A stretch of 32,361 nt of DNA from Synergistaceae bacterium. GTDB lineage: Bacteria > Synergistota > Synergistia > Synergistales > Aminobacteriaceae. The notes beneath the pieces were generated by a model. The model saw nothing but the letters and a program-made list of their open reading frames with translations. It was not told the DNA's origin and searched no databases. Location of the stretch: NCBI GenBank assembly GCA_017443945.1, contig JAFSXS010000095.1, positions 1-32,361 on the forward strand, read 5' to 3'. Positions 11,429 to 25,383 of this stretch are shown here, piece by piece. Both the position numbers and the translations under genes were made by a program. Each line of letters opens with the position of its first letter. Position 1 is the stretch's first letter.

Positions 11429-12622
11429 ATGAACGAATCTATAAAATTTGTACGCAGAAAATTAGACCCCATGCAAGATAATATTTTCACGCTTGAGAAC
11501 GCAAAAATTACCCGTAATTATCACGCAACATTCCCGACCTACAAGCCCACGCCGTTAATAAAACTTGATTCGCTCGCAAAAAATTTTAATCTCTCAGGTT
11601 TATACGTCAAAGATGAAAGTTTTAGATTTGGCCTGAACGCTTTTAAGGCACTCGGAGGAAGTTACGCGCTCGGACGTTATATCGCAGAAAAAATTAATGT
11701 TGATATAAGCGAACTTACATTTTCACGCATAATAAGCCCCGAAATAAAATCTAAAACCGGTGAGATAACTTTTATTACAGCAACAGACGGCAATCACGGA
11801 CGCGGAGTAGCATGGGCAGCACAACAGCTCGGACACAAAGCAGTTATTTACATGCCTCATGGTACAGTGCAGGAGAGATTAAATAATATTCGCGCACTAG
11901 GAGCAACGGCAGAAATTACAAATTTAAATTATGATGACACAGTTAGATTCGCCGCCGAGACCGCAAGAAAAAATAATTACGTCCTCGTTCAAGATACGAC
12001 TCTCCCCGATTACGAAAAAATTCCGGGCTGGGTCATGCAGGGATATTTGACGATGGCATTAGAGTCGGTCGAGCAATTAAATAATATTACGCCAACACAC
12101 ATATTTTTGCAGGCCGGAGTCGGTTCAATGGCTGCAGCTCTTGCAGGTTTCTACGCAAATTTTTATCGCACTAACAAGCCCGTAATTACAATAATTGAGT
12201 CAAACAAAGCCGATTGCATTTATCGCACAGCACGAGCCAATGACGGAAAATTACACAAAGTTTCAGGCTCAATGAACACGATAATGGCTGGACTTGCCTG
12301 CGGTGAAGTATGTTCTATTGCGTGGGATTTGTTGAGGTCGACAGCAGAAAATTTTATCTCAATGCCTGACTACATAGCTGCAAAAGGTATGAGAATCTTA
12401 GGCAACCCATTAGAGAATGACTCAAAAATTATTTCCGGTGAGAGCGGTGCAAGTTCATTCGGGTTTGTATGCGAGTTAATGCAAAATGAAAGTCTTGATT
12501 ATCTGCGCGAAGAGTTTAATATTACTCATGACTCAAAAATTTTCTGTATCTCAACAGAAGGCGACACGGATAAATTAAATTATCGTAAAATTGTCTGGGA
12601 CGGTTTGTACCCAAGCTATTAA
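11429..12622 (+). CDS. ygeX: Diaminopropionate ammonia-lyase
   Basis: A 397-residue PLP enzyme (398 in E. coli YgeX) that converts 2,3-diaminopropionate to pyruvate and two ammonia. The N-terminus contains TPLIKLDSLAKNF and the PLP-lysine segment SFRFGLNAFKALGGSYA (Lys73). TATDGNHGRGVAWAAQQLG is the phosphate-proximal substrate-binding loop of fold-type II enzymes, and SGESGASSFG is the glycine-rich loop near the C-terminus. An AGGAGG site and an 11-nt AT-only spacer precede the ATG, 8 bp after the amidohydrolase. The reaction passes through 2-aminoacrylate, which explains ridA immediately downstream. The gene lets the cell use diaminopropionate or its derivatives as carbon and nitrogen source. 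Confidence 0.95.
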   Translation: MNESIKFVRRKLDPMQDNIFTLENAKITRNYHATFPTYKPTPLIKLDSLAKNFNLSGLYVKDESFRFGLNAFKALGGSYALGRYIAEKINVDISELTFSRIISPEIKSKTGEITFITATDGNHGRGVAWAAQQLGHKAVIYMPHGTVQERLNNIRALGATAEITNLNYDDTVRFAAETARKNNYVLVQDTTLPDYEKIPGWVMQGYLTMALESVEQLNNITPTHIFLQAGVGSMAAALAGFYANFYRTNKPVITIIESNKADCIYRTARANDGKLHKVSGSMNTIMAGLACGEVCSIAWDLLRSTAENFISMPDYIAAKGMRILGNPLENDSKIISGESGASSFGFVCELMQNESLDYLREEFNITHDSKIFCISTEGDTDKLNYRKIVWDGLYPSY

Positions 12623-12638
12623 AGGAGGCTATTATAAT

Positions 12639-13007
12639 ATGAAAGTTTTTAGCACTGACAAAGCACCCGCAGCAATCGGGCCGTATTCACAAGGATTTAT
12701 CGCGAACGGATTAATTTTCACGTCGGGACAAATTCCGGTCAATCCTGCAACAGGTGAGATCCCCGAAGGAATCACAGCACAGGCCGAGCAGAGCTGTAAA
12801 AATGTCGGCGAGTTACTCAAGGCTGCCGGCTCAAGTTTTGACAAGGTCATCAAGACAACGTGTTTTCTTGCGGATATAAAAGATTTCGCAGCATTTAACG
12901 AGGTCTACGCAAAATTTTTCACGTCCAAACCTGCGCGCTCATGTGTTGCAGTTCGTGATATTCCAAAAGGTGCGTTATGCGAGATTGAATGTATAGCGGA
13001 AATGTAA
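12639..13007 (+). CDS. ridA: 2-iminobutanoate/2-iminopropanoate deaminase RidA
   Basis: A 122-residue cytosolic protein of the YjgF/YER057c/UK114 family. It starts at ATG 12639 after AAAGGAGG and an AT-rich spacer; an upstream in-frame start at 12591 would only read through the end of ygeX. The sequence has AIGPYSQGF, FTSGQIPVNPATGEI, the segment KVIKTTCFLADIKDFAAFNEVY and PARSCVAVRDIPKGALCEIECIA, in which the Arg and Glu are the family's active-site pair. RidA hydrolyses enamine/imine intermediates such as 2-aminoacrylate before they damage PLP enzymes. Its place right after diaminopropionate ammonia-lyase, a direct 2-aminoacrylate source, makes the pairing functional and not just positional. 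Confidence 0.96.
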   Translation: MKVFSTDKAPAAIGPYSQGFIANGLIFTSGQIPVNPATGEIPEGITAQAEQSCKNVGELLKAAGSSFDKVIKTTCFLADIKDFAAFNEVYAKFFTSKPARSCVAVRDIPKGALCEIECIAEM

Positions 13008-13015
13008 TTTTTTTG

Positions 13016-13024
13016 TGCTATAAT
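13016..13024 (+). promoter_or_regulatory. Extended -10 promoter of lipoprotein gene 1
   Basis: TGC-TATAAT, a perfect extended -10 element, 57 nt before the start codon; no clear -35. The same promoter precedes the second copy. Predicted transcription start is about 13031, next to an ATG (13033) of a short upstream frame. Confidence 0.75.
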
Positions 13025-13081
13025 TCCGAATCATGATTTACAAGATTTTATCAATATCAAGAAAGAGGTTTAAATTTTTTC

Positions 13082-15892
13082 ATGAAGTCATTTAATCGTA
13101 AGTTATTAGCTTTCTGTTCTGTAGCTGCATTATTATTTATTGCAGTTATGAGCGGAGGCTGCGGCGGCAGTCCTAGCACTCCATCAAGTTCTCCTGATCC
13201 TATTATTGATGTTGACAGCACTCTTTCAGGCGTATGGCGTATTGATACCAGCGCAAATAATTATGTGTCAGCCGACATTAACGGCAGCGAAGTTAATTTG
13301 GCGATAAAAGATTTTGTTCTTCGTTTCCAGAGCGTTGACATTGAAAGCAGTTCCGGAGAATTATATTTTGACACTGTTGCAATTTTTTCGAGCGACCGCG
13401 TTTTAATTCCGATAGCCTTCGACGAGGTAAAAGCAGCCACAAAAAATTTAGCTGATAATGTATTCAGTATGGAAGCTTATGGAAATAATTACATGTTCGA
13501 GATTAGCGGCACTGAGTCAGACCCTGTATTAACCCTCTTAGCTAATGTAAATCTTTTCGGCGATCACAGAGCTTTTGTCGCGATAGATTTTAAGAAGTTC
13601 AGCACCGCTTCAAGCAAGACAAATGAGCAGATGAACGCGATAATCAACGGCACATGGCAGACTCCCATACCATTAAACGGAATGGTCAACGGCGGATTTG
13701 TTTTCGTTAGCGATGACATGCCGGAACCCGAATTTGAAGACGATTTGCCCGAACCTCCCGAACGTCCTTCAGATATGCCGTTAATTGAAGGAATGCGCGA
13801 GATTGATACAGCGTTTGCAAATGTAACGTTTGAGAACACTAATACAGCAGCAAATTCTACGGTTATTACGACTCAAATAGCAGTAGGGACTCTGACAACA
13901 AGCGGCGATTTTACAGGCCCTGTAAATCCGGTTATGAATGTTGATTACTCAGGAGCAAAAATTACAGCACTTTATGACAACATGTATAAGATCGAGATTA
14001 GTTCAGACAATAAATCATATTTCTTGGTCGATTCTGATGGTACTCATGCATATTTTATAAACTGGATAATAATTCCTACAAGCGATACTACTTTTACAGA
14101 GACCCGCACAGTATTAGCACTTGAGAAAAAGCCCGATATGAGTCAGAGTTCATTTGATTTAACGCAGCAGATCGGAACAGTTTGGCACTCATTAAATTTA
14201 GCGGTCGGGGAAATCAGAGACTCAACTTCAACACGTCCGGCAGAAATAAGATTTAATGAACTTTCGCTTTTATTCCCGTCTGAGTCTGCTGATGTTGCAA
14301 ATAAAACTTTCGGAACTGTTATATTAGGCGAATATTACGAGCTTGAACCTGCAGGTACTGCGTCAGAAGCAAAATTACTCAGCTTGGATATTACCGTAAA
14401 GAATATCGAACGTATCGGCTATAATTCTTGGTACGCTGACGACGGCGGAGACTCCAGCTTTATAATCACTGTATTAAATAATAATTATGCTCTCATTACA
14501 GCGAATTTAATACGTAACGGCAAAGAAATATCAATTATTGCGCTTATGTCTCAATTAGGCGATATTGAAAATATTTTCTTCGCAGGTGCTTGGACATGCT
14601 GGAGTTCTGATGCAGATATTTCTATAACTCAGGGCACTGCGACATATAATACAACGCTTTTGAATTTCGGCGTAAATATTACTTCAGTCGACTTTGATTC
14701 AGGTTCTGCTTCGTTATCGGCTGTCGTAGTCTTAAGCAGTGATTTATTCCTTATTCCCGTTGTATTTGATAATATTGCAGTGAGTGTTGATGAAGGTGCT
14801 GAATCGGGCGAATTTACTTTAACGTCTCCCCGCGTTTCATTGACAGTTACAGCATATCCCGGAGATCCTAACAAATTAGATATTAACGGAGCTTTCACGC
14901 AATCAGACGTTGGTATAACAGTTTCAATTGACGCTGCAGCCTCCAGAGTCATACCCGGCCAAACATCGCAGGAATTAGATTTTGACTCAATCATGAACCA
15001 AAGCACGTGGCAGAGCATACCGTTTGATAATCGTTCGGGCGGATTTGCAATAATCGGCATTTCTTCATATAAGATGATGTATCCCGGAGTAAATAATAAA
15101 ACTTTTGCAAATATAGTTTTTGACGGAGATAAAACGAGCGGTACAATATCGGGCTTCGGCACTATGGGCTTGACAAGTTTAGATTTCGGGACAGGAAATT
15201 TTGTTGATAACGGTTTAACGCTGCCTGTAACGATAATTAAAGAAAGTGTTGATGTCTCGCAGGTCTTCGGCAATTTCTACAGATTCGAATTTATCAGCGG
15301 CGATGCTGATATTAAGGGCGTATTTATTCTTGAGAGTGAATCAACAGCGTACATGATTATGTTTGCTACAAACGGAGCCAATGCAGATGTAATCACAAAT
15401 CTTTATTCAGTGTTCTATCTCCATAAAGTAACGGAAAGCACAGAAATTGATTTAACAGGCTTTGACAATACTTCATGGGACGTTACGCAGGCCGGCGGTT
15501 TAACTCTTTTACCGGACGGGAATATTTTGCAGATTACTAATGCAAGCCCCGATATTTATCAAGTAAGACTGAAAGATTTTACAGTGAAATTTACTGACGC
15601 TGACGAGACAGCAAAAACGGTTGGCTTTACAGTTACTGCTTCTGCTGATATAAATACATCTGGAAACATAACAAATCATCAGGTCGCAATTCCGGAGAAA
15701 ACTGTCAGCATTGAAAAACTCGGTGCCTATACATGGTACGGAATCTCAGGCAATAGTGAATTTCTCGTAACAATGAGCGCAGCATATCAAAACCGTGCAG
15801 CTTTGGCGGGAAATCTTAACTTCACATCACCGAATAATGCTGATTACAATATTATAGCTTCTATCTTGCTTGATTTGGAGTTAAAGCAATAA
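13082..15892 (+). CDS. Large repeat-containing lipoprotein, paralog 1
   Basis: A 936-residue protein of a family I do not recognise. Residues 1-26 are a lipoprotein signal peptide ending SGG, with Cys27 as lipidation site, followed by a Ser/Pro-rich linker. The mature part is beta-rich, acidic and almost free of cysteine. It is an internal duplication: halves about 49-500 and 501-936, each with three blocks in the same order. Block A starts with G-x-W (50, 502) and has F-x-S-V-D, S-S-D and P-x-x-F-D. Block B starts TWQ (191, 642) and has GGF. Block C starts with a Trp (368, 799), has N/Y-x-W-Y and ends before an I/V-A-x-L segment. AAGAGG lies ahead of the ATG. Probably anchored in a membrane facing the periplasm or outside; function unknown. 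Confidence 0.85.
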   Translation: MKSFNRKLLAFCSVAALLFIAVMSGGCGGSPSTPSSSPDPIIDVDSTLSGVWRIDTSANNYVSADINGSEVNLAIKDFVLRFQSVDIESSSGELYFDTVAIFSSDRVLIPIAFDEVKAATKNLADNVFSMEAYGNNYMFEISGTESDPVLTLLANVNLFGDHRAFVAIDFKKFSTASSKTNEQMNAIINGTWQTPIPLNGMVNGGFVFVSDDMPEPEFEDDLPEPPERPSDMPLIEGMREIDTAFANVTFENTNTAANSTVITTQIAVGTLTTSGDFTGPVNPVMNVDYSGAKITALYDNMYKIEISSDNKSYFLVDSDGTHAYFINWIIIPTSDTTFTETRTVLALEKKPDMSQSSFDLTQQIGTVWHSLNLAVGEIRDSTSTRPAEIRFNELSLLFPSESADVANKTFGTVILGEYYELEPAGTASEAKLLSLDITVKNIERIGYNSWYADDGGDSSFIITVLNNNYALITANLIRNGKEISIIALMSQLGDIENIFFAGAWTCWSSDADISITQGTATYNTTLLNFGVNITSVDFDSGSASLSAVVVLSSDLFLIPVVFDNIAVSVDEGAESGEFTLTSPRVSLTVTAYPGDPNKLDINGAFTQSDVGITVSIDAAASRVIPGQTSQELDFDSIMNQSTWQSIPFDNRSGGFAIIGISSYKMMYPGVNNKTFANIVFDGDKTSGTISGFGTMGLTSLDFGTGNFVDNGLTLPVTIIKESVDVSQVFGNFYRFEFISGDADIKGVFILESESTAYMIMFATNGANADVITNLYSVFYLHKVTESTEIDLTGFDNTSWDVTQAGGLTLLPDGNILQITNASPDIYQVRLKDFTVKFTDADETAKTVGFTVTASADINTSGNITNHQVAIPEKTVSIEKLGAYTWYGISGNSEFLVTMSAAYQNRAALAGNLNFTSPNNADYNIIASILLDLELKQ

Positions 15893-15898
15893 TTTAAA

Positions 15899-15933
15899 GT
15901 CGGGGAGAAAGTTTTATCTCTCCGGCTTTTTTT
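15899..15933 (+). terminator. Intrinsic terminator of lipoprotein gene 1
   Basis: A 10-bp stem (15899-15908 with 15917-15926, two G-U pairs), an 8-nt loop and seven T. The T run merges into the promoter of the next unit, so termination and the next initiation are packed within about 45 bp. Confidence 0.92.
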
Positions 15934-15934
15934 G

Positions 15935-15943
15935 TGCTATAAT
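15935..15943 (+). promoter_or_regulatory. Extended -10 promoter of lipoprotein gene 2
   Basis: TGC-TATAAT identical to that of gene 1, in the same T7-GTG context. Its upstream side lies inside the preceding terminator, so a -35 contact is unlikely to matter and the extended -10 should be the main determinant. Confidence 0.75.
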
Positions 15944-15999
15944 CCCGAATCATGATTTACAAGATTTTATCAAATACTAAGAAAGAGGCTTAAATTTTC

Positions 16000-18789
16000 A
16001 TGAAGTCATTTAATCGTAAGTTATTAGCTTTCTGTTCTGTTGCTGCATTATTATTTATTGCAGTTATTAGCGGAGGCTGCGGCGGCAGTTCATCAACTCC
16101 CGGAAGTACTTCTGTTGATCTTAACACAGTTCTTGCGGGCGGCTGGAGAATGGACACGAGCGCAAAAAATTTTGTATCAGCTGACATATACAACACACCG
16201 GTTGAATTAATTTTCAGGGAGTTTGCGGCGAAATTCTCATCAGTTGACGTAGGAACAATAGGCGGCACAGCATATTTCGAGGCTGTTGCGGTTATTTCCG
16301 GTGAGCGCGTTGTTCTTCCTTTCATTCTTGATCCTGTAAGCGTAGACGTTGCAGAATCAGTATTAAATAATAACACATGGTACATATCTAATACACCTCT
16401 TGATTTTGCTTATACACTGGAACTCGATAACTCAACTTCAACGCCTAAAATTAGATTATCGGGATTTGTTGATTTAGTCGGCGATGGTAATTATTGGTCA
16501 TATCTTGATGTAACGCTCTCAAAAGTTACGGACACTACACCGACAAACGAGAAAATGAACGCACTTATTGACGGAACATGGCAGACTCCAGTAACTGAGG
16601 GAACATTTACCGGCGGCGGATTTGTTTTCGTGAGCGGAGATACTGCAGAAGCCCTGCTTATGGATGGAATGACTCCTATTGATGCAGTATTCACAAATCT
16701 TAGATTCGATTACACAGATTTTGCGAGTGAAACATCAGAAGTAACTAACACGTCGTTATTTGCCTTCCTTAGCAATGATAATGAATGGGCAGATACAAAC
16801 GAGACTGAAGATCCCGTAATGCTCATATTTAACGATGAATACGTAGAAATCACACGTCTTTTCGGGAATATCTATAAGATTGTATACGACGATTACGACT
16901 CGGAAGATTATAATTCTGATTTCACGGATTCAAAAGCTGTTCTCATGATTGACGATAACGAGAAGCGGGCATATTTAATCAGCAGCTATATTAATTACGG
17001 CGAGGACTCATCATACACGGAGATTCGCACAGTTCACGCACTAGAGAAAAAGCCGGAGGATAGCATATACACTGTAGCAAGCCAGGACGGCACAATTTGG
17101 GATACAACAAGCACCGCTTCAGCAACAGTAAAAATTCTTGACACTTCAACGGGTGAAGAGACTGCTCCGATCGATATTGACAAAATCGAAATTATATTTG
17201 CTAATTATGACGCTGATAGCACCTCGTTAGATCTTAAAGTTATGGTCAACTATTACACGAGCGAATCGACCGAACTCAAGACAATGAGTATTGACCTTGC
17301 TATAGATGAAGTAATGGAATTAGGCTATAACACTTGGTACGGTATGGCATCATACGGAGACTTCACAATGACATTTATCAGCGGGGATTTAGCGATAATC
17401 GCAGTTAATTTCGAGCTTCCAAATACGAATTATTATGTCAGTTGTGCAGCGTTTATAAAACTTGTCGGCAATATGGAAAACGGTTTCTTCAGCGGTGCAT
17501 GGACTAGCACGAGTTCTGACGCAAAAGTATTTATTACGAGTCCCGGTTGGGCTGACGAAGTAACATTATCGACTTTCGGCGCATATTTCTCGTCAGTTGA
17601 CATTGAAGCAGGCACGGCTAAATTCTCGGCGTTCACGGTATTAAGCAGTGATTTATTCCTGATCCCTGTAGTATTCGATAATGAAAGTGTTTCTGTTGAC
17701 GCAGGTGCTGCAGAAGACGAATATATTGTAACGTCTCCGCACGGTTCATTTACAGTCACGAGAAATACCAGCGATCCCGATAAAATAAATATTAACGGCA
17801 GCTTTGATTTTGATCTCGGCTTAACAGTGAGCATTGATGCTGCAGCCAGTAAAATCCGGCCTAATGAGAAACTCGATTTTGACTCTATCATGAAGACAAG
17901 CACGTGGCAGACTACACCTTTAGACGCTAAATCCGGCGGTTTTGCAATCATCGGCAGCTCGTCATCACAAATGATTTATCCCGGAATAAATTATAAGACT
18001 TTTGCGTCATTAGCATTTAACGGAGACAGCACAGATGCTACAGTTTCCGGCTTTGGCACTATGGGATTATCGAGCTTTGATCTTGCTTCACGTGAATGGG
18101 TTGATAATGGGTATATGCTGCCCGTAACTCTTACAAAGGAATCTATAAATGTTGATAATATTTTCGGCAATTATTACAGATTCAGTTTTGAGAGCGGAGA
18201 CTCTGATCTCAAAGGAGTATTTATCCTAGAGAGTGAATCAACTGCGCGAATGATTTTATTTGCTGACAGCGGAAGTAGTACGGCAATAACAAAGCTTTAT
18301 ACGGTCTTCTATCTCAATAAAATAACTGAGAGCAGCACGACAATTGACTTGACAGCATTTAACAATACTTCATGGGATGTTACACAGGCCGGCGGTGTAG
18401 CTGTTTTACCGGACGGGAATATTTTGCAGATTACTAATGCAAGCCCCAATGCTCATCAAGTAAGGCTGACTAATTTTGAAGTACGATTTACGAGTGCTGA
18501 TCTAACGACACAAACATTTGCTTTTTCTGCCTCTGCAGATGTTGAGATACCTGCATATCATGGTACGGACAAGAGCTCAGTTATATTTGAGAATAAAATT
18601 GTAACTGTTGAAAAACTCGGTGATTATATGTGGCTCGGTACAGAGGGCAATAATGAATTTATCTTGACAATAAGCGCAGGACAATTAAACCGGGCAGCAA
18701 TAGCAGGAGCTCTTAATTTCACCTCTCCTAATAATGCCAACTTCAATGTTGCGGCCTCGATATTGTTAGACTTACTGTTAAAGCAATAA
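16000..18789 (+). CDS. Large repeat-containing lipoprotein, paralog 2
   Basis: A 929-residue paralog of the upstream protein. The signal peptide (to ISGG, Cys27) is identical except for one residue. The same two halves with three blocks each can be traced: A at 47 and 499, B at TWQ 193 and 635, C at 367 and 791. The second half is closest to paralog 1, with stretches such as LSSDLFLIPVVFDN, SGFGTMG, GVFILESEST and VLPDGNILQITNASP retained. The first half has diverged more and is rich in Asp/Tyr/Ser around 295-320. AAGAGG precedes the ATG, and an independent terminator follows. Both copies have intact frames, so both are probably expressed. Function is unknown; a surface or periplasmic role is inferred from the lipobox. 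Confidence 0.85.
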   Translation: MKSFNRKLLAFCSVAALLFIAVISGGCGGSSSTPGSTSVDLNTVLAGGWRMDTSAKNFVSADIYNTPVELIFREFAAKFSSVDVGTIGGTAYFEAVAVISGERVVLPFILDPVSVDVAESVLNNNTWYISNTPLDFAYTLELDNSTSTPKIRLSGFVDLVGDGNYWSYLDVTLSKVTDTTPTNEKMNALIDGTWQTPVTEGTFTGGGFVFVSGDTAEALLMDGMTPIDAVFTNLRFDYTDFASETSEVTNTSLFAFLSNDNEWADTNETEDPVMLIFNDEYVEITRLFGNIYKIVYDDYDSEDYNSDFTDSKAVLMIDDNEKRAYLISSYINYGEDSSYTEIRTVHALEKKPEDSIYTVASQDGTIWDTTSTASATVKILDTSTGEETAPIDIDKIEIIFANYDADSTSLDLKVMVNYYTSESTELKTMSIDLAIDEVMELGYNTWYGMASYGDFTMTFISGDLAIIAVNFELPNTNYYVSCAAFIKLVGNMENGFFSGAWTSTSSDAKVFITSPGWADEVTLSTFGAYFSSVDIEAGTAKFSAFTVLSSDLFLIPVVFDNESVSVDAGAAEDEYIVTSPHGSFTVTRNTSDPDKININGSFDFDLGLTVSIDAAASKIRPNEKLDFDSIMKTSTWQTTPLDAKSGGFAIIGSSSSQMIYPGINYKTFASLAFNGDSTDATVSGFGTMGLSSFDLASREWVDNGYMLPVTLTKESINVDNIFGNYYRFSFESGDSDLKGVFILESESTARMILFADSGSSTAITKLYTVFYLNKITESSTTIDLTAFNNTSWDVTQAGGVAVLPDGNILQITNASPNAHQVRLTNFEVRFTSADLTTQTFAFSASADVEIPAYHGTDKSSVIFENKIVTVEKLGDYMWLGTEGNNEFILTISAGQLNRAAIAGALNFTSPNNANFNVAASILLDLLLKQ

Positions 18790-18812
18790 CCGAACATGAA
18801 ATAATAATTTCG

Positions 18813-18852
18813 CAGTCAGGGAGAAAAGTTTAACTCTCTGGCTGTTTTCTTT
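18813..18852 (+). terminator. Intrinsic terminator of lipoprotein gene 2
   Basis: An 11-bp stem (18813-18823 with 18834-18844, two G-U pairs), then TTTTCTTT. It is recognisably related to the terminator at 15899-15933, so the terminator was part of the duplicated unit. Confidence 0.88.
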
Positions 18853-18901: not shown

Positions 18902-19867
18902 ATGGATATTACTTGTTTATTATGGCTGCAAGACTTGAGAAACGTAATCAATAGTGATGCATTAATTGATTTCATCACAGTGTTTTCATTTTTTGCGGTC
19001 TCATGGGTTGTAATGATCCCTGTTTTAGTTTACTGGTGCATTAACAAGAAGAACGGATTATTTCTCTATGTGTCATACTGCACGAGCTGGTTTATTAACG
19101 GTCTTATAAAATTAACGGTCTGTGCATATCGTCCGTGGATAAGGGATTCGCGAATCATTCCTGCGGGCGGTGAAATAACAATGAAGACTGCGGGCGGTTA
19201 TTCATTTCCGAGCGGCCACACAATGCAGTCATCGCCTATTTACGGGGGACTCGCTGTATTATGCCGTAAGAGTGCCGCAATATTTTCATGTTTCTTAGTG
19301 CTTGTAATTCTTGCAACGGCTTTATCGCGCATTTATCTGGGAGTTCATACGCCTCAAGATGTAGTAGTCGGGACAGTCTGCGGCCTTTGTTCGGTCTGGG
19401 TAGCTGCAAAAATTATTGCTTATTGCAGTGCACACCCTGAGAGAGAAAATATTTTCCTGCTGATCGGTCTTATATTGAGCTTTGCTTCTGTGTATTATAT
19501 TACTCACAAGTCTTATCCGATGGATTACGTTGACGGCAAATTATTAGTTGATCCTGCAAAAATGATGAATGACACATTTTTAGCTAATGGAATGCTTGCG
19601 GGCTTTGTTGTCGGGCGGTTCATTGAGAAAACGTTTGTAAAATTTGACTCGACAGGCTTTAATTTCGTTGGTCTGTTAGTTGCGTTTATTGGATTTATAC
19701 CGCTTTATTTTATCAGGATGAGCATTTGCAGCGTATATAGTTTTATTACAGTGCCGTTATATGGTGCGCTCGGTTCACACTGGGGACACTTTGCGATAGG
19801 TTTTATTGAATTTTTCTATACAGTTGCATTGTGGCCAATAGTGATTAAATTATTTACCCGCAAATAA
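18902..19867 (+). CDS. PAP2-family membrane phosphatase
   Basis: A 321-residue polytopic membrane protein. The three phosphatase motifs are complete: K70-x6-R77-P78 (KLTVCAYRP), PSGH at 103-106 (SFPSGHTMQ) and SRIYLGVHTPQD (142-153, with catalytic His149 and Asp153). These enzymes hydrolyse lipid phosphates such as undecaprenyl pyrophosphate or phosphatidic acid on the outer face of the inner membrane. About eight hydrophobic segments are visible; after the catalytic core there are extra helices (about 165-320), making it longer than minimal PAP2 proteins. It has its own promoter and terminator, so it looks monocistronic. The lipid substrate is not known; undecaprenyl-PP recycling is one possibility. 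Confidence 0.9.
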   Translation: MDITCLLWLQDLRNVINSDALIDFITVFSFFAVSWVVMIPVLVYWCINKKNGLFLYVSYCTSWFINGLIKLTVCAYRPWIRDSRIIPAGGEITMKTAGGYSFPSGHTMQSSPIYGGLAVLCRKSAAIFSCFLVLVILATALSRIYLGVHTPQDVVVGTVCGLCSVWVAAKIIAYCSAHPERENIFLLIGLILSFASVYYITHKSYPMDYVDGKLLVDPAKMMNDTFLANGMLAGFVVGRFIEKTFVKFDSTGFNFVGLLVAFIGFIPLYFIRMSICSVYSFITVPLYGALGSHWGHFAIGFIEFFYTVALWPIVIKLFTRK

Positions 19868-20175: not shown

Positions 20176-23100
20176 GTGAACACGAAAAAATTTTTGGTGC
20201 TATTAGTGTGCGCATTTATATTTTTCGCGGAAAATTTATCGTATGCGGATACAATTATTGTTCCTGCGCCGTATTATGATGATATTAATTATTATCGTCA
20301 AAATTATTCTGCTCATGATAAATCGAGTGACTGTTTTCACTTTGTCCAGGCAGTATTAAGAGATGAAGGCAGGACATTGCCAGGCGGATCTGTAGTTAAT
20401 AATAAACCTTATTTCAGCGGCTTGACTGCTTATGATTCGTGCTGGTCTTCGTCGGGACTGACAAATAATGCAGATTTACGTGAGACTCTCAAGAAGAAAT
20501 TTTTTAACGCTAAAATCGGAGACGTTGTCCAAATGTATTGGAATACCGGCGGAGGATATTCTTCAACCCAGCACACAGCAATAATCGCAGAAGTAACTGA
20601 TGACGGCGTTTATTTCCTTCAGTCAGGATTTCAGCAGAAAGAACTATATCGAAAAAATGCAGATAATCAATACATACAAGGCTATATCGGGAGAAATTTT
20701 TTCTCATGGGAGACTCTTGCGCGTTGTTATGCTAATGCGGGCGCAAATGGAGGTGTCAGCTTCTACAGATTTCCGGGACCGCCTGTTAACGGTTTTGATT
20801 TAGGTCAATGTCTGCAGGTTATTCCCATGCCTGCAAAAGTAAATACTCATTATTACGGCGAAACTGTGTTTGACTGCTGGTCAGTAAGGTCTGAGATGGT
20901 AACTTGGACTCTTACTTCCGGAACTTTGCCGGACGGATGCACTATTTCAAATGTAAGATGGGAATGTGTGAAGGACAGTGCAATTGGTTATCTAGTATTT
21001 GATTTCACACCTTCAAGAGCGGGAAAATATGTATTTACATTTACGGGAAATTCTCTCGACTGGGTTCACGACAGATTATTATATTACGAATTTATTGTAG
21101 AAGAAGCTCCGCAACCTGACAATAACGCACCCAGACGCGACTCTAACGGCAATGTAACATTTGAGAGATCAAAAACGGATTCCAATTTCTGGACGGAGTT
21201 GCTGAACAAGTTTAACAGTTTTCATTTATTCAGCAGCAAATATGATAGTGATGAGCTCGTGTTTACGCCTGAAATGATAGCGCAGATTAAAGAATTTAAT
21301 TTATCGGGCAAAAGTATTTCGAGTCTCGTCGGGATAAATTACTTCACCGCGCTGGAAAAATTAAATTGTTCAGGAAATAATCTCACGACTCTTAACGTAA
21401 CGGGCTGTAAAAATCTCATTGAGCTTAACTGCTCAGGAAATAATTTAACAAATTTGAACGTAAACGGCTGCACAAAACTTGAGACTATAGGTTGCAATTT
21501 CAACCAAATAACCGGCGTTCTTGACGTGAGCGGATGCACAAACCTGAAAACTTTTTACTGCAGCTTTAACGAGCTTCAATGGCTTAATATGTCGGGCTGT
21601 GTGAATCTCGAATATCTTGACTGTTCGAACAACAATTTTGAATCTTTAAGCGTGAGGGATTATCCCAAGTTAAAGACTCTTTATTACGGTTCGCCTAACT
21701 TGAAGACTCTCAATGTAATAAATTGTACTGCCCTTACAGAGTTAATAGGAGAATTTAGCAATCTTACTACACTGAATCTCAGCGGGTGCAGCTCTCTTGC
21801 AGAATTTCTACTTACGTCTTATCCGTCAGTAGAAAAACTTGACATCAGCGGAACTGCAATATCTGGGATCGGCACTTATTACCTTTATGATTTTCCAAAT
21901 TTAAAAGAGTTTACCGCATGTAATTGTCCTAATCTCACTTATATAGATCTAAGCTATAAAAATTTAACTCGTATTGATGTGAGCGGAAGTACAAATATTG
22001 AATATCTCAACTGTCAAGGCTGTAGTCAGCTTAAAAAATTATTAGTCGAAAATTGCAGCGAACTCACTTATATTTATGCCGAGAACAATAATTTGACGTA
22101 TCTTGATGTCAGTAAATGCCCGAAAATAGAGTATATTCGTTGCGACTCTGACAAGACACAAATTATTTGCGCTGATGGTTATATTCCGATTGATTATGTT
22201 CATTTTCCCGATGCTAATTTCAGAGATTGTATACTTGACGATGTCGCGGGAAACTGCTTGTTAAATACTAACATGTATAATCTAACAAACATTAATGTAT
22301 CAAGCAGAGATATAGCAGATTTGACAGGCATTGAATATTTAACAGAGCTGCAAGCTTTAACATGTCATGAGAACAAGCTCACAAAATTAGACTTGAGCAA
22401 GAATCCTAAATTAAAGTGGCTTGACTGCGCAGTAAATTCAATCACTGAACTAAATATAACCGACTGTAATGCATTAACTTATATTAACTGTGCTGGCAAT
22501 CAAATTACAAAATTAAATCTTGATAACTGCCCTGAACTTGTCGACCTGAATTGCGACATGAATCTTTTAACGAGTCTCAACGTCAGCACGTGCCGTTATT
22601 TAAAGTGGCTTCATTGCCATGATAATAACATTGCTTCATTAAACTTGGCGAATAATTCGGCGTTGAAAAATTTAGACTGCTCCCATAACCAATTGGCGAG
22701 TCTGAATCTCAATAACTGCCCTGAGCTTGAAGATTTGTCATGCAGTGGGAACAAATTAACACAGTTAGATTTAAGTTCGTGCAAAAATTTAACCGAGCTT
22801 TATTGCTCCGATAATTCTTTAACGCGCTTAGACTTGAGCAACCTCACGAAATTAACGCAGCTTCATTGCCACGACTGCCAGATTGAAGAATTGCGGCTAG
22901 ATAATTGCAGCTCACTTGAAGGTATTTATTGCGGGGGGAACAAATTAACCCGTCTTGATGTCAGCAAATGCTCATTTTTAGAATATCTTCTATGCGATAA
23001 TGACAAAGTAGAAATTATTTGCGCTGACGGAGATTTGCCGATTGATTATATTCATTTTCCCGATAAAAGTTTCAGATATAGTATACTTTTGTATAGGCAC

Positions 23101-25383
23101 AATTCAGGCCATATTATTCGCAAGGCCGATGTTGACGTAACAAAAATTACAGAATTGTATCTTTCATACTATGATATTGAAGACTTAACCGGAATTGAAT
23201 ATTTTAGCGGGCTTAAAACTTTATATGCTGACAATAATAAGCTGACAAAGCTGGATTTAAGCAAAAATAAAGCATTGACACAAATTAGCTGCAATCATAA
23301 TCAAATCACAGAAATAAATTTAGCGTCCTGCACCGAACTTGTAAAAGTAGAATTTTTCAACAATCCATTAACACGGCTCGATTTAAGCACCCTCACGAAA
23401 TTAGCTGACTTAGATATAGGAAATGTTGATAAATTGACGTATTTAAACGTAAGCAACACTGCATTGAGAAATCTTATTTGCACAAATAGCAGTCTTACGG
23501 AATTAAGAGTCAATAATTGCTCGAAACTTGTATTTCTTGAATGTACCGGCAATAAATTAACGCAAATTTACGCGGTCAACTGCCCAAATTTAACAGATTC
23601 TGCTATATATTGCGATCCAGGAGTAAAAATTATCCGCGATTCTTCCAGCCCTGTAAAAATTGTTACTAATAATATAACCAATGCGCAAATTAATAAATCT
23701 TACTCGTTCCAGCTAAAAGCGTCAGGCACAGGCAATATAACATGGCAGATAAAATCGGGTTCACTTCCTGAAGGCTTGAATCTCAGCAAGTCAGGACTCA
23801 TAAGCGGCAAACCGTCAAAGGCAGGAAATTATAAATTTACTGTTACAGCCTCAAACGGTAATGAATCAGACTCTAAAGAATTTACAATAATAGTTACAGC
23901 GTCGGGAACTTCACTCGAAATCACAACAGAGACTCTCAAGGCCGGCACTCATGGGAAAAATTACAGCTCAACCGTCAAAGCTAAGGGCGCAAATAACTTC
24001 ACAGCGTCGGGACTCCCTGAAGGCTTGAATATTAATTCAACAACGGGCAAAATTTCGGGCAAACCTTCAGAGTACGGCAAATTTAACGTGATAATAACGG
24101 CTTCTAATGCTAATGACTCGACTCAAAAAAGTTTTTCGCTCGTAATAAAACCTGTCGCGCCGAAAATTTCCGCAAAAATATCAACAGGCCGAGTCTATGA
24201 AGAATATTCAACAGTTCTGACAATTTCTAAAGGTTCGAATCCAGTCAAATGGAGCGTTGATTATTTACCGGAAGGCTTGACTCTTAACTCTGAGACAGGG
24301 AAAATTTCGGGAAAACCGACTCAATTTTTCAAGGGCAAAATAAATGTTACAGCCTCAAACGATGCAGGAATCGCAAATAAATCAATGACTCTAAAAATTG
24401 ACGCAGACAAGCCCGCGATAACTTCAATTACTCATGACGGAAGATCAGCAGCCGTAAAAGGTCAAAGCTATTCGCTTACTTGCACAGGAACAGGGACAAA
24501 GCCTTTAACATGGTCATTTACAGGACTCCCTGAAGGCATGACAGGAGACTCAAGCACCGGCAAAATTTCAGGAACACCGGCAGAGTCAGGAAAATTCAAA
24601 ATTTCTGTTGAGCTAACAAATATGACCGGCAAAATTAAGCGCAAAAAATATACTTTGACCGTGTATAATCCTCCTGCAATTACAACTGAAAATTTACCCG
24701 ACGCAACGTATAACAATTCTTATAAATTCTCACTCACAGCAACGGGCGATAAAAAAATTCAGTGGCGCGCAGAAGGACTCCCAACCGGGTTAAAAATTTC
24801 GAGTTCCGGCAAAATTTCAGGCAAACCAACAGCTAAACCCGGCAATTATGCAATCACAATTACGGCCTACAATGCAAAGATTCCGGATTCTTACTCACAA
24901 CGAGAGACCAGCAAAATTTTTAATCTCGTGATAAATAATAATCCTGACTCGAAGAAGGCTTATAACGAGACTCAGACTCAAGACTCGAACGATTCAACAA
25001 GTGCAAGCGATTCACTTAATGAGCCTGAAAAAATTATTGTCTCACCAGAAAAATTAATAATCGGCCCTGAACGCAATATTTCAACAACAAATATAAATCT
25101 CTCGAACGATTATATAATTGCTGCTGTATTACCTGAGATTCATGTAACAGAAAGCGGACTCTATGAACTTGAAGTCGAACTTGATGAAAATATTAATATC
25201 GGCGAAAAATTAATTTGGTTGGCAATGCCTCAAAATAGCGAGCCTTCAGAAGATGACTTAATCGCAGAATTTTACGACGAGACCGGACAAGAAATTTTTG
25301 CAGTCCCGGAAAATCATTTAATCACAATTTCTGCATGGTTCAATAAGGGGACAATTTACGCGCCCATTATCGCCGTAAAATAG
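20176..25383 (+). CDS. Secreted 1735-residue protein: peptidase-like head, three cysteine-rich LRR modules, five putative-Ig domains
   Basis: GTG start after GGGGG; signal peptide about 1-25 (ending SYADT). Residues 35-200 look like a CHAP/NlpC-P60 cysteine peptidase: SSDCFHFVQAVL (Cys53), IGDVVQMYW and QHTAIIAEV (His133). A beta domain covers about 205-315. From about 359 to 1140 run three leucine-rich modules. Two begin with an ICADG-x-x-PIDY-x-HFPD cap (near 662 and 949), then GIEYLTEL-type entry strands and 21-22-residue repeats of the form L-x-C-x-x-N-x-L-x-x-L-x-L, with a Cys in most repeats. From about 1160 to 1586 are five putative-Ig (He_PIG) domains, each with LPEGL-x5-TG-x-ISGKP. 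A separate domain of about 110 residues ends IYAPIIAVK. Likely a cell-surface adhesin or wall-acting protein; the partner is unknown. Confidence 0.85.
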   Translation: MNTKKFLVLLVCAFIFFAENLSYADTIIVPAPYYDDINYYRQNYSAHDKSSDCFHFVQAVLRDEGRTLPGGSVVNNKPYFSGLTAYDSCWSSSGLTNNADLRETLKKKFFNAKIGDVVQMYWNTGGGYSSTQHTAIIAEVTDDGVYFLQSGFQQKELYRKNADNQYIQGYIGRNFFSWETLARCYANAGANGGVSFYRFPGPPVNGFDLGQCLQVIPMPAKVNTHYYGETVFDCWSVRSEMVTWTLTSGTLPDGCTISNVRWECVKDSAIGYLVFDFTPSRAGKYVFTFTGNSLDWVHDRLLYYEFIVEEAPQPDNNAPRRDSNGNVTFERSKTDSNFWTELLNKFNSFHLFSSKYDSDELVFTPEMIAQIKEFNLSGKSISSLVGINYFTALEKLNCSGNNLTTLNVTGCKNLIELNCSGNNLTNLNVNGCTKLETIGCNFNQITGVLDVSGCTNLKTFYCSFNELQWLNMSGCVNLEYLDCSNNNFESLSVRDYPKLKTLYYGSPNLKTLNVINCTALTELIGEFSNLTTLNLSGCSSLAEFLLTSYPSVEKLDISGTAISGIGTYYLYDFPNLKEFTACNCPNLTYIDLSYKNLTRIDVSGSTNIEYLNCQGCSQLKKLLVENCSELTYIYAENNNLTYLDVSKCPKIEYIRCDSDKTQIICADGYIPIDYVHFPDANFRDCILDDVAGNCLLNTNMYNLTNINVSSRDIADLTGIEYLTELQALTCHENKLTKLDLSKNPKLKWLDCAVNSITELNITDCNALTYINCAGNQITKLNLDNCPELVDLNCDMNLLTSLNVSTCRYLKWLHCHDNNIASLNLANNSALKNLDCSHNQLASLNLNNCPELEDLSCSGNKLTQLDLSSCKNLTELYCSDNSLTRLDLSNLTKLTQLHCHDCQIEELRLDNCSSLEGIYCGGNKLTRLDVSKCSFLEYLLCDNDKVEIICADGDLPIDYIHFPDKSFRYSILLYRHNSGHIIRKADVDVTKITELYLSYYDIEDLTGIEYFSGLKTLYADNNKLTKLDLSKNKALTQISCNHNQITEINLASCTELVKVEFFNNPLTRLDLSTLTKLADLDIGNVDKLTYLNVSNTALRNLICTNSSLTELRVNNCSKLVFLECTGNKLTQIYAVNCPNLTDSAIYCDPGVKIIRDSSSPVKIVTNNITNAQINKSYSFQLKASGTGNITWQIKSGSLPEGLNLSKSGLISGKPSKAGNYKFTVTASNGNESDSKEFTIIVTASGTSLEITTETLKAGTHGKNYSSTVKAKGANNFTASGLPEGLNINSTTGKISGKPSEYGKFNVIITASNANDSTQKSFSLVIKPVAPKISAKISTGRVYEEYSTVLTISKGSNPVKWSVDYLPEGLTLNSETGKISGKPTQFFKGKINVTASNDAGIANKSMTLKIDADKPAITSITHDGRSAAVKGQSYSLTCTGTGTKPLTWSFTGLPEGMTGDSSTGKISGTPAESGKFKISVELTNMTGKIKRKKYTLTVYNPPAITTENLPDATYNNSYKFSLTATGDKKIQWRAEGLPTGLKISSSGKISGKPTAKPGNYAITITAYNAKIPDSYSQRETSKIFNLVINNNPDSKKAYNETQTQDSNDSTSASDSLNEPEKIIVSPEKLIIGPERNISTTNINLSNDYIIAAVLPEIHVTESGLYELEVELDENINIGEKLIWLAMPQNSEPSEDDLIAEFYDETGQEIFAVPENHLITISAWFNKGTIYAPIIAVK

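Follow-up and report, generated by a model that had tools for sequence, protein, structure and literature searches.

Tandem six-domain lipoprotein genes of a gut Synergistaceae bacterium as a likely recombining pair encoding putative multi-barrel binding proteins

The window, i.e. the whole stretch of DNA analyzed here (32,361 nucleotides), is contig C95 of the 2.4-Mb draft genome (G000) of a gut (rumen-type) Synergistaceae bacterium. It harbors two neighboring lipoprotein genes, c1 and c2, flanked by genes for a RidA protein and a PAP2-family phosphatase. Each lipoprotein comprises a signal peptide and six domains of ~140-176 residues in the order (ABC)x2, with the domain borders set by a repeated W-containing start; the first half (A1-B1-C1) is termed H1 and the second (A2-B2-C2) H2. 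Counterparts of the locus were found in the sister species G062 and G016, and all genomes compared are drafts, each species being represented by a single genome. The features are as follows.

12591-13007, + strand: RidA (L-PSP family), left flank
13008-13171, + strand: 5' block of c1, with T-run, extended -10 (TATAAT at 13019-13024), leader and signal peptide up to the lipobox
13082-15892, + strand: c1, 936-residue lipoprotein with alpha-type H1 and predicted lipidated cysteine at residue 27
13211-14566, + strand: H1 of c1, with A1 (residues 44-183), B1 (184-359) and C1 (360-495); alpha class, partner c2 of G062
14567-15889, + strand: H2 of c1, with A2 (496-633), B2 (634-790) and C2 (791-936)
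15507-15550, + strand: 44-nt tract identical to 18404-18447 in c2
15896-15929, + strand: terminator of c1, with a 13-bp stem; the stretch folds at -18.9 kcal/mol
15927-16089, + strand: 5' block of c2, with T-run, extended -10 (TATAAT at 15938-15943), leader and signal peptide
16000-18789, + strand: c2, 929-residue lipoprotein with beta-type H1, counterpart of c2 of G016
16120-17475, + strand: H1 of c2 (A1-B1-C1), beta class
17476-18786, + strand: H2 of c2 (A2-B2-C2), the half that was modeled
18812-18847, + strand: terminator of c2, a homologue of the c1 terminator
18902-19867, + strand: PAP2-family membrane phosphatase, right flank

As read from the sequence, both proteins begin with MKSFNRKLLAFCSVAALLFIAV(M/I)SGGC, and both have the charged n-region, hydrophobic core and lipobox cysteine of a lipoprotein processed by signal peptidase II. 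A preliminary description had proposed that promoter, leader, signal peptide and terminator were duplicated together with the gene and that the first 155 bp or so were almost identical; both points were borne out, with the 164-bp block at 13008-13171, comprising the extended -10 (TGCTATAAT), leader and signal peptide, recurring at 15927-16089 with 95% identity, and with homologous terminators behind the two genes. The -10 was assigned by reading the sequence and by conservation; predicted promoter-like matches at the locus were not above chance and were discarded. The terminator stem-loops fold with z-scores of -5.8 (c1) and -4.2 (c2, ~18812-18847), the pattern common to them occurs in the genome only at these two sites, and no further copy of the 5' block was found in the 2.4-Mb genome. 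Assembly collapse of c1 and c2 in the window was ruled out by several differences between the two 5' copies. The RidA stop codon directly adjoins the T-run of the c1 block (13005-13024), and neither a hairpin nor the terminator-like sequence seen behind RidA in G062 separates the two; transcription of RidA may continue into c1, and the placement of the c1 block directly on the RidA stop would fit a join made at the T-run. Elsewhere in the genome, an otherwise dissimilar lipoprotein ORF (L025:899-2071, - strand) carries the LSGGCGGSPGTP lipobox region of c1, which suggests that this lipobox may be typical of the genus.

Searches of Pfam and NCBIfam with c1 and c2 yielded nothing above cut-off, in agreement with the earlier view that the family has no name; there was no significant PDB-sequence match, and sub-threshold matches to VirC1, SPP1_Dit and nanobodies in these searches were set aside as chance. 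We found nothing specific on the family in the literature. A profile search of 183 genomes of the order recovered relatives in 15 of the 43 species of one genus and in no other genus, and the relatives among named records come from the rumen of red deer and goat, in assemblies of uncultured Synergistales/Synergistaceae. We are dealing with an unnamed lipoprotein family that is restricted to one genus and has an unusual (ABC)x2 layout. Within this layout, profile comparison shows H1 to be homologous to H2 (hhalign probability 98.9, E 1.2e-17), and a 501-residue protein of G013 consists of a single ABC set. The window's own genome holds a third, distant member at the end of contig C62 (L024:5291-6001), cut by the contig end. 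In G005, an (ABC)x2 relative (L028:4828-7397, - strand) is split into two overlapping frames of 571 and 309 residues, suggesting a frameshift or an assembly error.

The full-length AlphaFold model was poor (pLDDT 55). H2 of c2 was modeled as an all-beta structure (pLDDT 73, pTM 0.75), in which each domain has a short helix, a strand bearing the conserved W and then about eight more strands; the first strand carries G-x-W in the A domains and B1, with B2 and the C domains keeping the W only. Foldseek placed TbpB, BFA1 and DUF3598 at the top and fHbp lower, with low whole-model TM throughout (for TbpB, E 5e-6 and TM ~0.2). VIA-align gave Z of 9.5 for BFA1 (5yvf) and 9.0 for DUF3598 (2o62), 7-8 for TbpB, 6-8 for single barrels in the TbpB/fHbp comparison, and 7-8 for the C2 domain against lipocalins (odorant-binding protein, C8gamma, L-PGDS); chance matches also occur in this range (7-9.5). 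With middling Z this common, we take the fold matches as suggestive, not proof, and surmise from the model that the six domains probably fold as small beta-barrels. The predicted short helix, W-bearing first strand and roughly eight antiparallel strands resemble lipocalin/calycin-like barrels such as DUF3598 and BFA1, but in c1 and c2 the domains stand in tandem within a lipoprotein and have no Pfam lipocalin-type match.

The gene order RidA-c1-c2-PAP2 is the same in G062 as in the window, and G016 has the right part (c1-c2-PAP2), its contig starting inside c1; the PAP2 protein is 85% identical to that of G062 and 84% to that of G016. A search for an empty site yielded none: a PAP2 orthologue of >80% identity was seen only in these two genomes, and the best RidA and PAP2 homologues of other species were not seen next to each other. 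By pairwise identity, H1 falls into three classes with 24-44% identity between them: alpha (window c1 and G062 c2, about 59% identical), beta (window c2 and G016 c2, about 57%) and gamma (G062 c1 and G016 c1, the latter as far as its contig reaches). The class does not follow gene position, with the second gene being alpha in G062 and beta in G016.

Along the two window genes, protein identity falls from 97% over the signal peptide to 33% over the first half and recovers to 60% over the second. Nucleotide identity is 98% over codons 1-30, and identity then runs at ~40-60% in residues 60-500 and at 65-83% across much of residues 500-936. The preliminary description, which had envisaged strongly diverged gene middles with identity returning in patches near the 3' ends, was thus right that divergence is non-uniform, but the diverged part is the first half, and the tree signal changes in one sharp step at the H1/H2 domain junction (residue ~495), not in scattered patches. 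It had also put forward gene conversion of the ends, a proposal that survives for the 5' end: the synonymous difference between c1 and c2 in the signal peptide is 0.05, as against ~0.6 for either gene vs. its sister-species counterparts, and in the tree of this block c1 and c2 pair, with other groupings rejected (AU p ~1e-5). These data support a recent homogenization of the 5' ends, for which protein constraint cannot be the cause since synonymous sites and the untranslated leader are near-identical too. At the 3' end the proposal mostly fails, as pS in H2 between c1 and c2 (0.53) lies within the background of genome-wide orthologues at this species distance (0.47-0.60), so that the returning protein identity appears to reflect mostly older shared ancestry and purifying constraint, and not mainly recent conversion. 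Only one short patch, in C2, looks recently converted: a perfect match of 44 nt, unusual by shuffling (0 of 5000 shuffles across all codons, 28 of 5000 when restricted to same-residue codons), which could be a brief conversion tract.

An account without any exchange is that c1 and c2 are old duplicates under unequal constraint, the leader and H2 being constrained and H1 free or positively selected. The lower pN of H2 relative to H1 between c1 and c2 is what this account would expect; within a class, however, H1 and H2 diverge equally (59 vs. 61% amino acid identity for alpha, 57 vs. 61% for beta), so H1 is not looser, and at the 5' end, where near-identity extends to silent and untranslated positions, the account is effectively refuted. 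We judge it very improbable. Pairwise dN/dS within classes is 0.25-0.33 in H1 and H2 alike, with dS values >1 near saturation and hence rough. The idea that exposed parts had diversified found no backing here: the diverged first half comes in two ancient classes that both evolve at this same ratio, H1 evolves no faster than H2, and the first half sits closer to the membrane in an N-terminally anchored lipoprotein. Purifying selection dominates on average, with pairwise averages leaving room for positive selection at a few sites.

We then compared window c1, window c2, G062 c2 and G016 c2 for mosaic structure, scoring informative sites as class : same genome : other. The counts were 0:20:0 in the signal-peptide block, 204:21:20 in H1 and 34:50:32 in H2. 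The best-fitting breakpoints were placed at codon nt 105-133 and 1480-1489, for a gain of 81.8 lnL units, vs. a maximum of 12.7 in 60 shuffles. The H1 tree set c1 with G062 c2 against c2 with G016 c2 (delta lnL 266; others AU <1e-50), and the H2 tree set c1 with c2 against G062 c2 with G016 c2, with the other groupings only marginally disfavored (AU p 0.035 and 0.004). In a tree of half-units, alpha and beta H1 were separate and the corresponding H2 halves clustered together, the alpha pair bearing no printed support value owing to rooting. In these trees the signal-peptide block groups by genome, H2 does so weakly, and H1 sorts into two old classes that match neither species nor gene position. 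The three segments have significantly different trees across the three species, with one breakpoint just 3' of the lipobox and the other where the H1 domains meet those of H2.

The same two places reappear as the edges of a tract of ~1.56 kb that is ~97% identical between G062 and G016; it begins with A2 of the first gene and extends as far as the second gene's lipobox. Beyond these edges, identity falls abruptly to about 65% and 50-60%; in its coding part pS is 0.09, vs. 0.27-0.43 in nine other ORFs of this genome pair, and its pairwise dN/dS is 0.13. Some of the junctions could be artifacts of chimeric contigs in G016 or G062, but a chimeric G016 contig, which could produce one junction, is unlikely as a full explanation because the gene order is shared and there is a separate junction inside c1. 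These findings indicate that the locus swaps parts, with the start, first half and second half differing in ancestry. Alternatively, an ancestral gamma-alpha-beta array could have lost one member per species with no recombination inside genes, the window retaining alpha-beta, G062 gamma-alpha and G016 gamma-beta. A single loss each would explain the content and order of all three loci, yet one alpha/beta tree should then hold gene-wide, which the signal-peptide block rejects and H2 disfavors (the p values of ~1e-5 and 0.035 above), and array loss cannot account for a 97% tract with edges inside genes. While we consider this explanation unlikely, such an array may have been the starting state, with recombination added later.

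We thus favor, as the likely reading, a recombining pair of (ABC)x2 lipoprotein genes that undergoes segment swapping and encodes putative multi-barrel binding proteins. We postulate that the leader block and the H2 half, both conserved, would serve as homology arms for homologous recombination between the neighboring copies, by gene conversion or unequal crossing-over; DNA taken in from related gut species would be the alternative partner. Replacement of one segment with the rest kept would place different H1 classes behind the same leader and H2, with H1 determining the variant type. The products may be anchored in the outer membrane and bind host-, diet- or community-derived ligands. With its sharp breakpoints, this homology-arm idea is directly testable in metagenomes.

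Among known systems, the Slam-dependent surface lipoproteins TbpB, LbpB and fHbp of Neisseria and Pasteurellaceae are N-terminally lipidated eight-stranded beta-barrels (PMC7857515), and fHbp has recombination sites within the gene and an average dN:dS of 0.35 (PMC2801853). Our family resembles them in 1) the lipidated N-terminus; 2) the best Foldseek matches of the c2 H2 model, as far as a predicted structure can tell; and 3) for fHbp, intragenic recombination and a comparable ratio (0.35 vs. 0.25-0.33). It differs in showing no detectable sequence similarity and in having six domains in tandem paralogues, as opposed to one or two lobes, so the likeness to fHbp and other barrel-type surface lipoproteins is one of working, not membership. 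A search for Slam (PF04575) in G000, G062 and G016 gave 0 matches, as did the controls in the same search. Our family suggests that modular recombination as in Neisseria antigens is also at work in gut Synergistaceae.

Borrelia Vmp and Mycoplasma Vsp are recombining multicopy lipoprotein families with a common leader and divergent bodies. The leader shared by c1 and c2 before their divergent bodies recalls, by analogy, such variable families, and could point to antigenic variation or phase switching, in which a strain would often switch between expressed and silent copies. In contrast to those families, there are just two copies here, both equipped with a promoter-like block and a terminator of their own; the genome yielded no silent cassettes, and beyond the short 5' block the copies have diverged to species-level depth; of the explanations considered, we hold this one the least probable. 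A stronger form of segment swapping, which we offer tentatively and with more doubt than belief, is a hypervariable exchange locus of gut Synergistaceae: H1 modules of three domains (~1.36 kb) would be swapped as wholes, among paralogues as well as species, at fixed domain junctions, and ancient H1 classes would be kept under balancing or frequency-dependent selection. If so, phages, protists or host ligands would be candidate selective agents on the H1 classes.

To the right of PAP2, the window also contains a 1735-residue ORF (20176-25383) that carries numerous leucine-rich repeats (LRR_4, EndoS-type LRR) along with five Ig-like domains of the He_PIG type, the product of which is probably another large surface protein near the lipoprotein pair.
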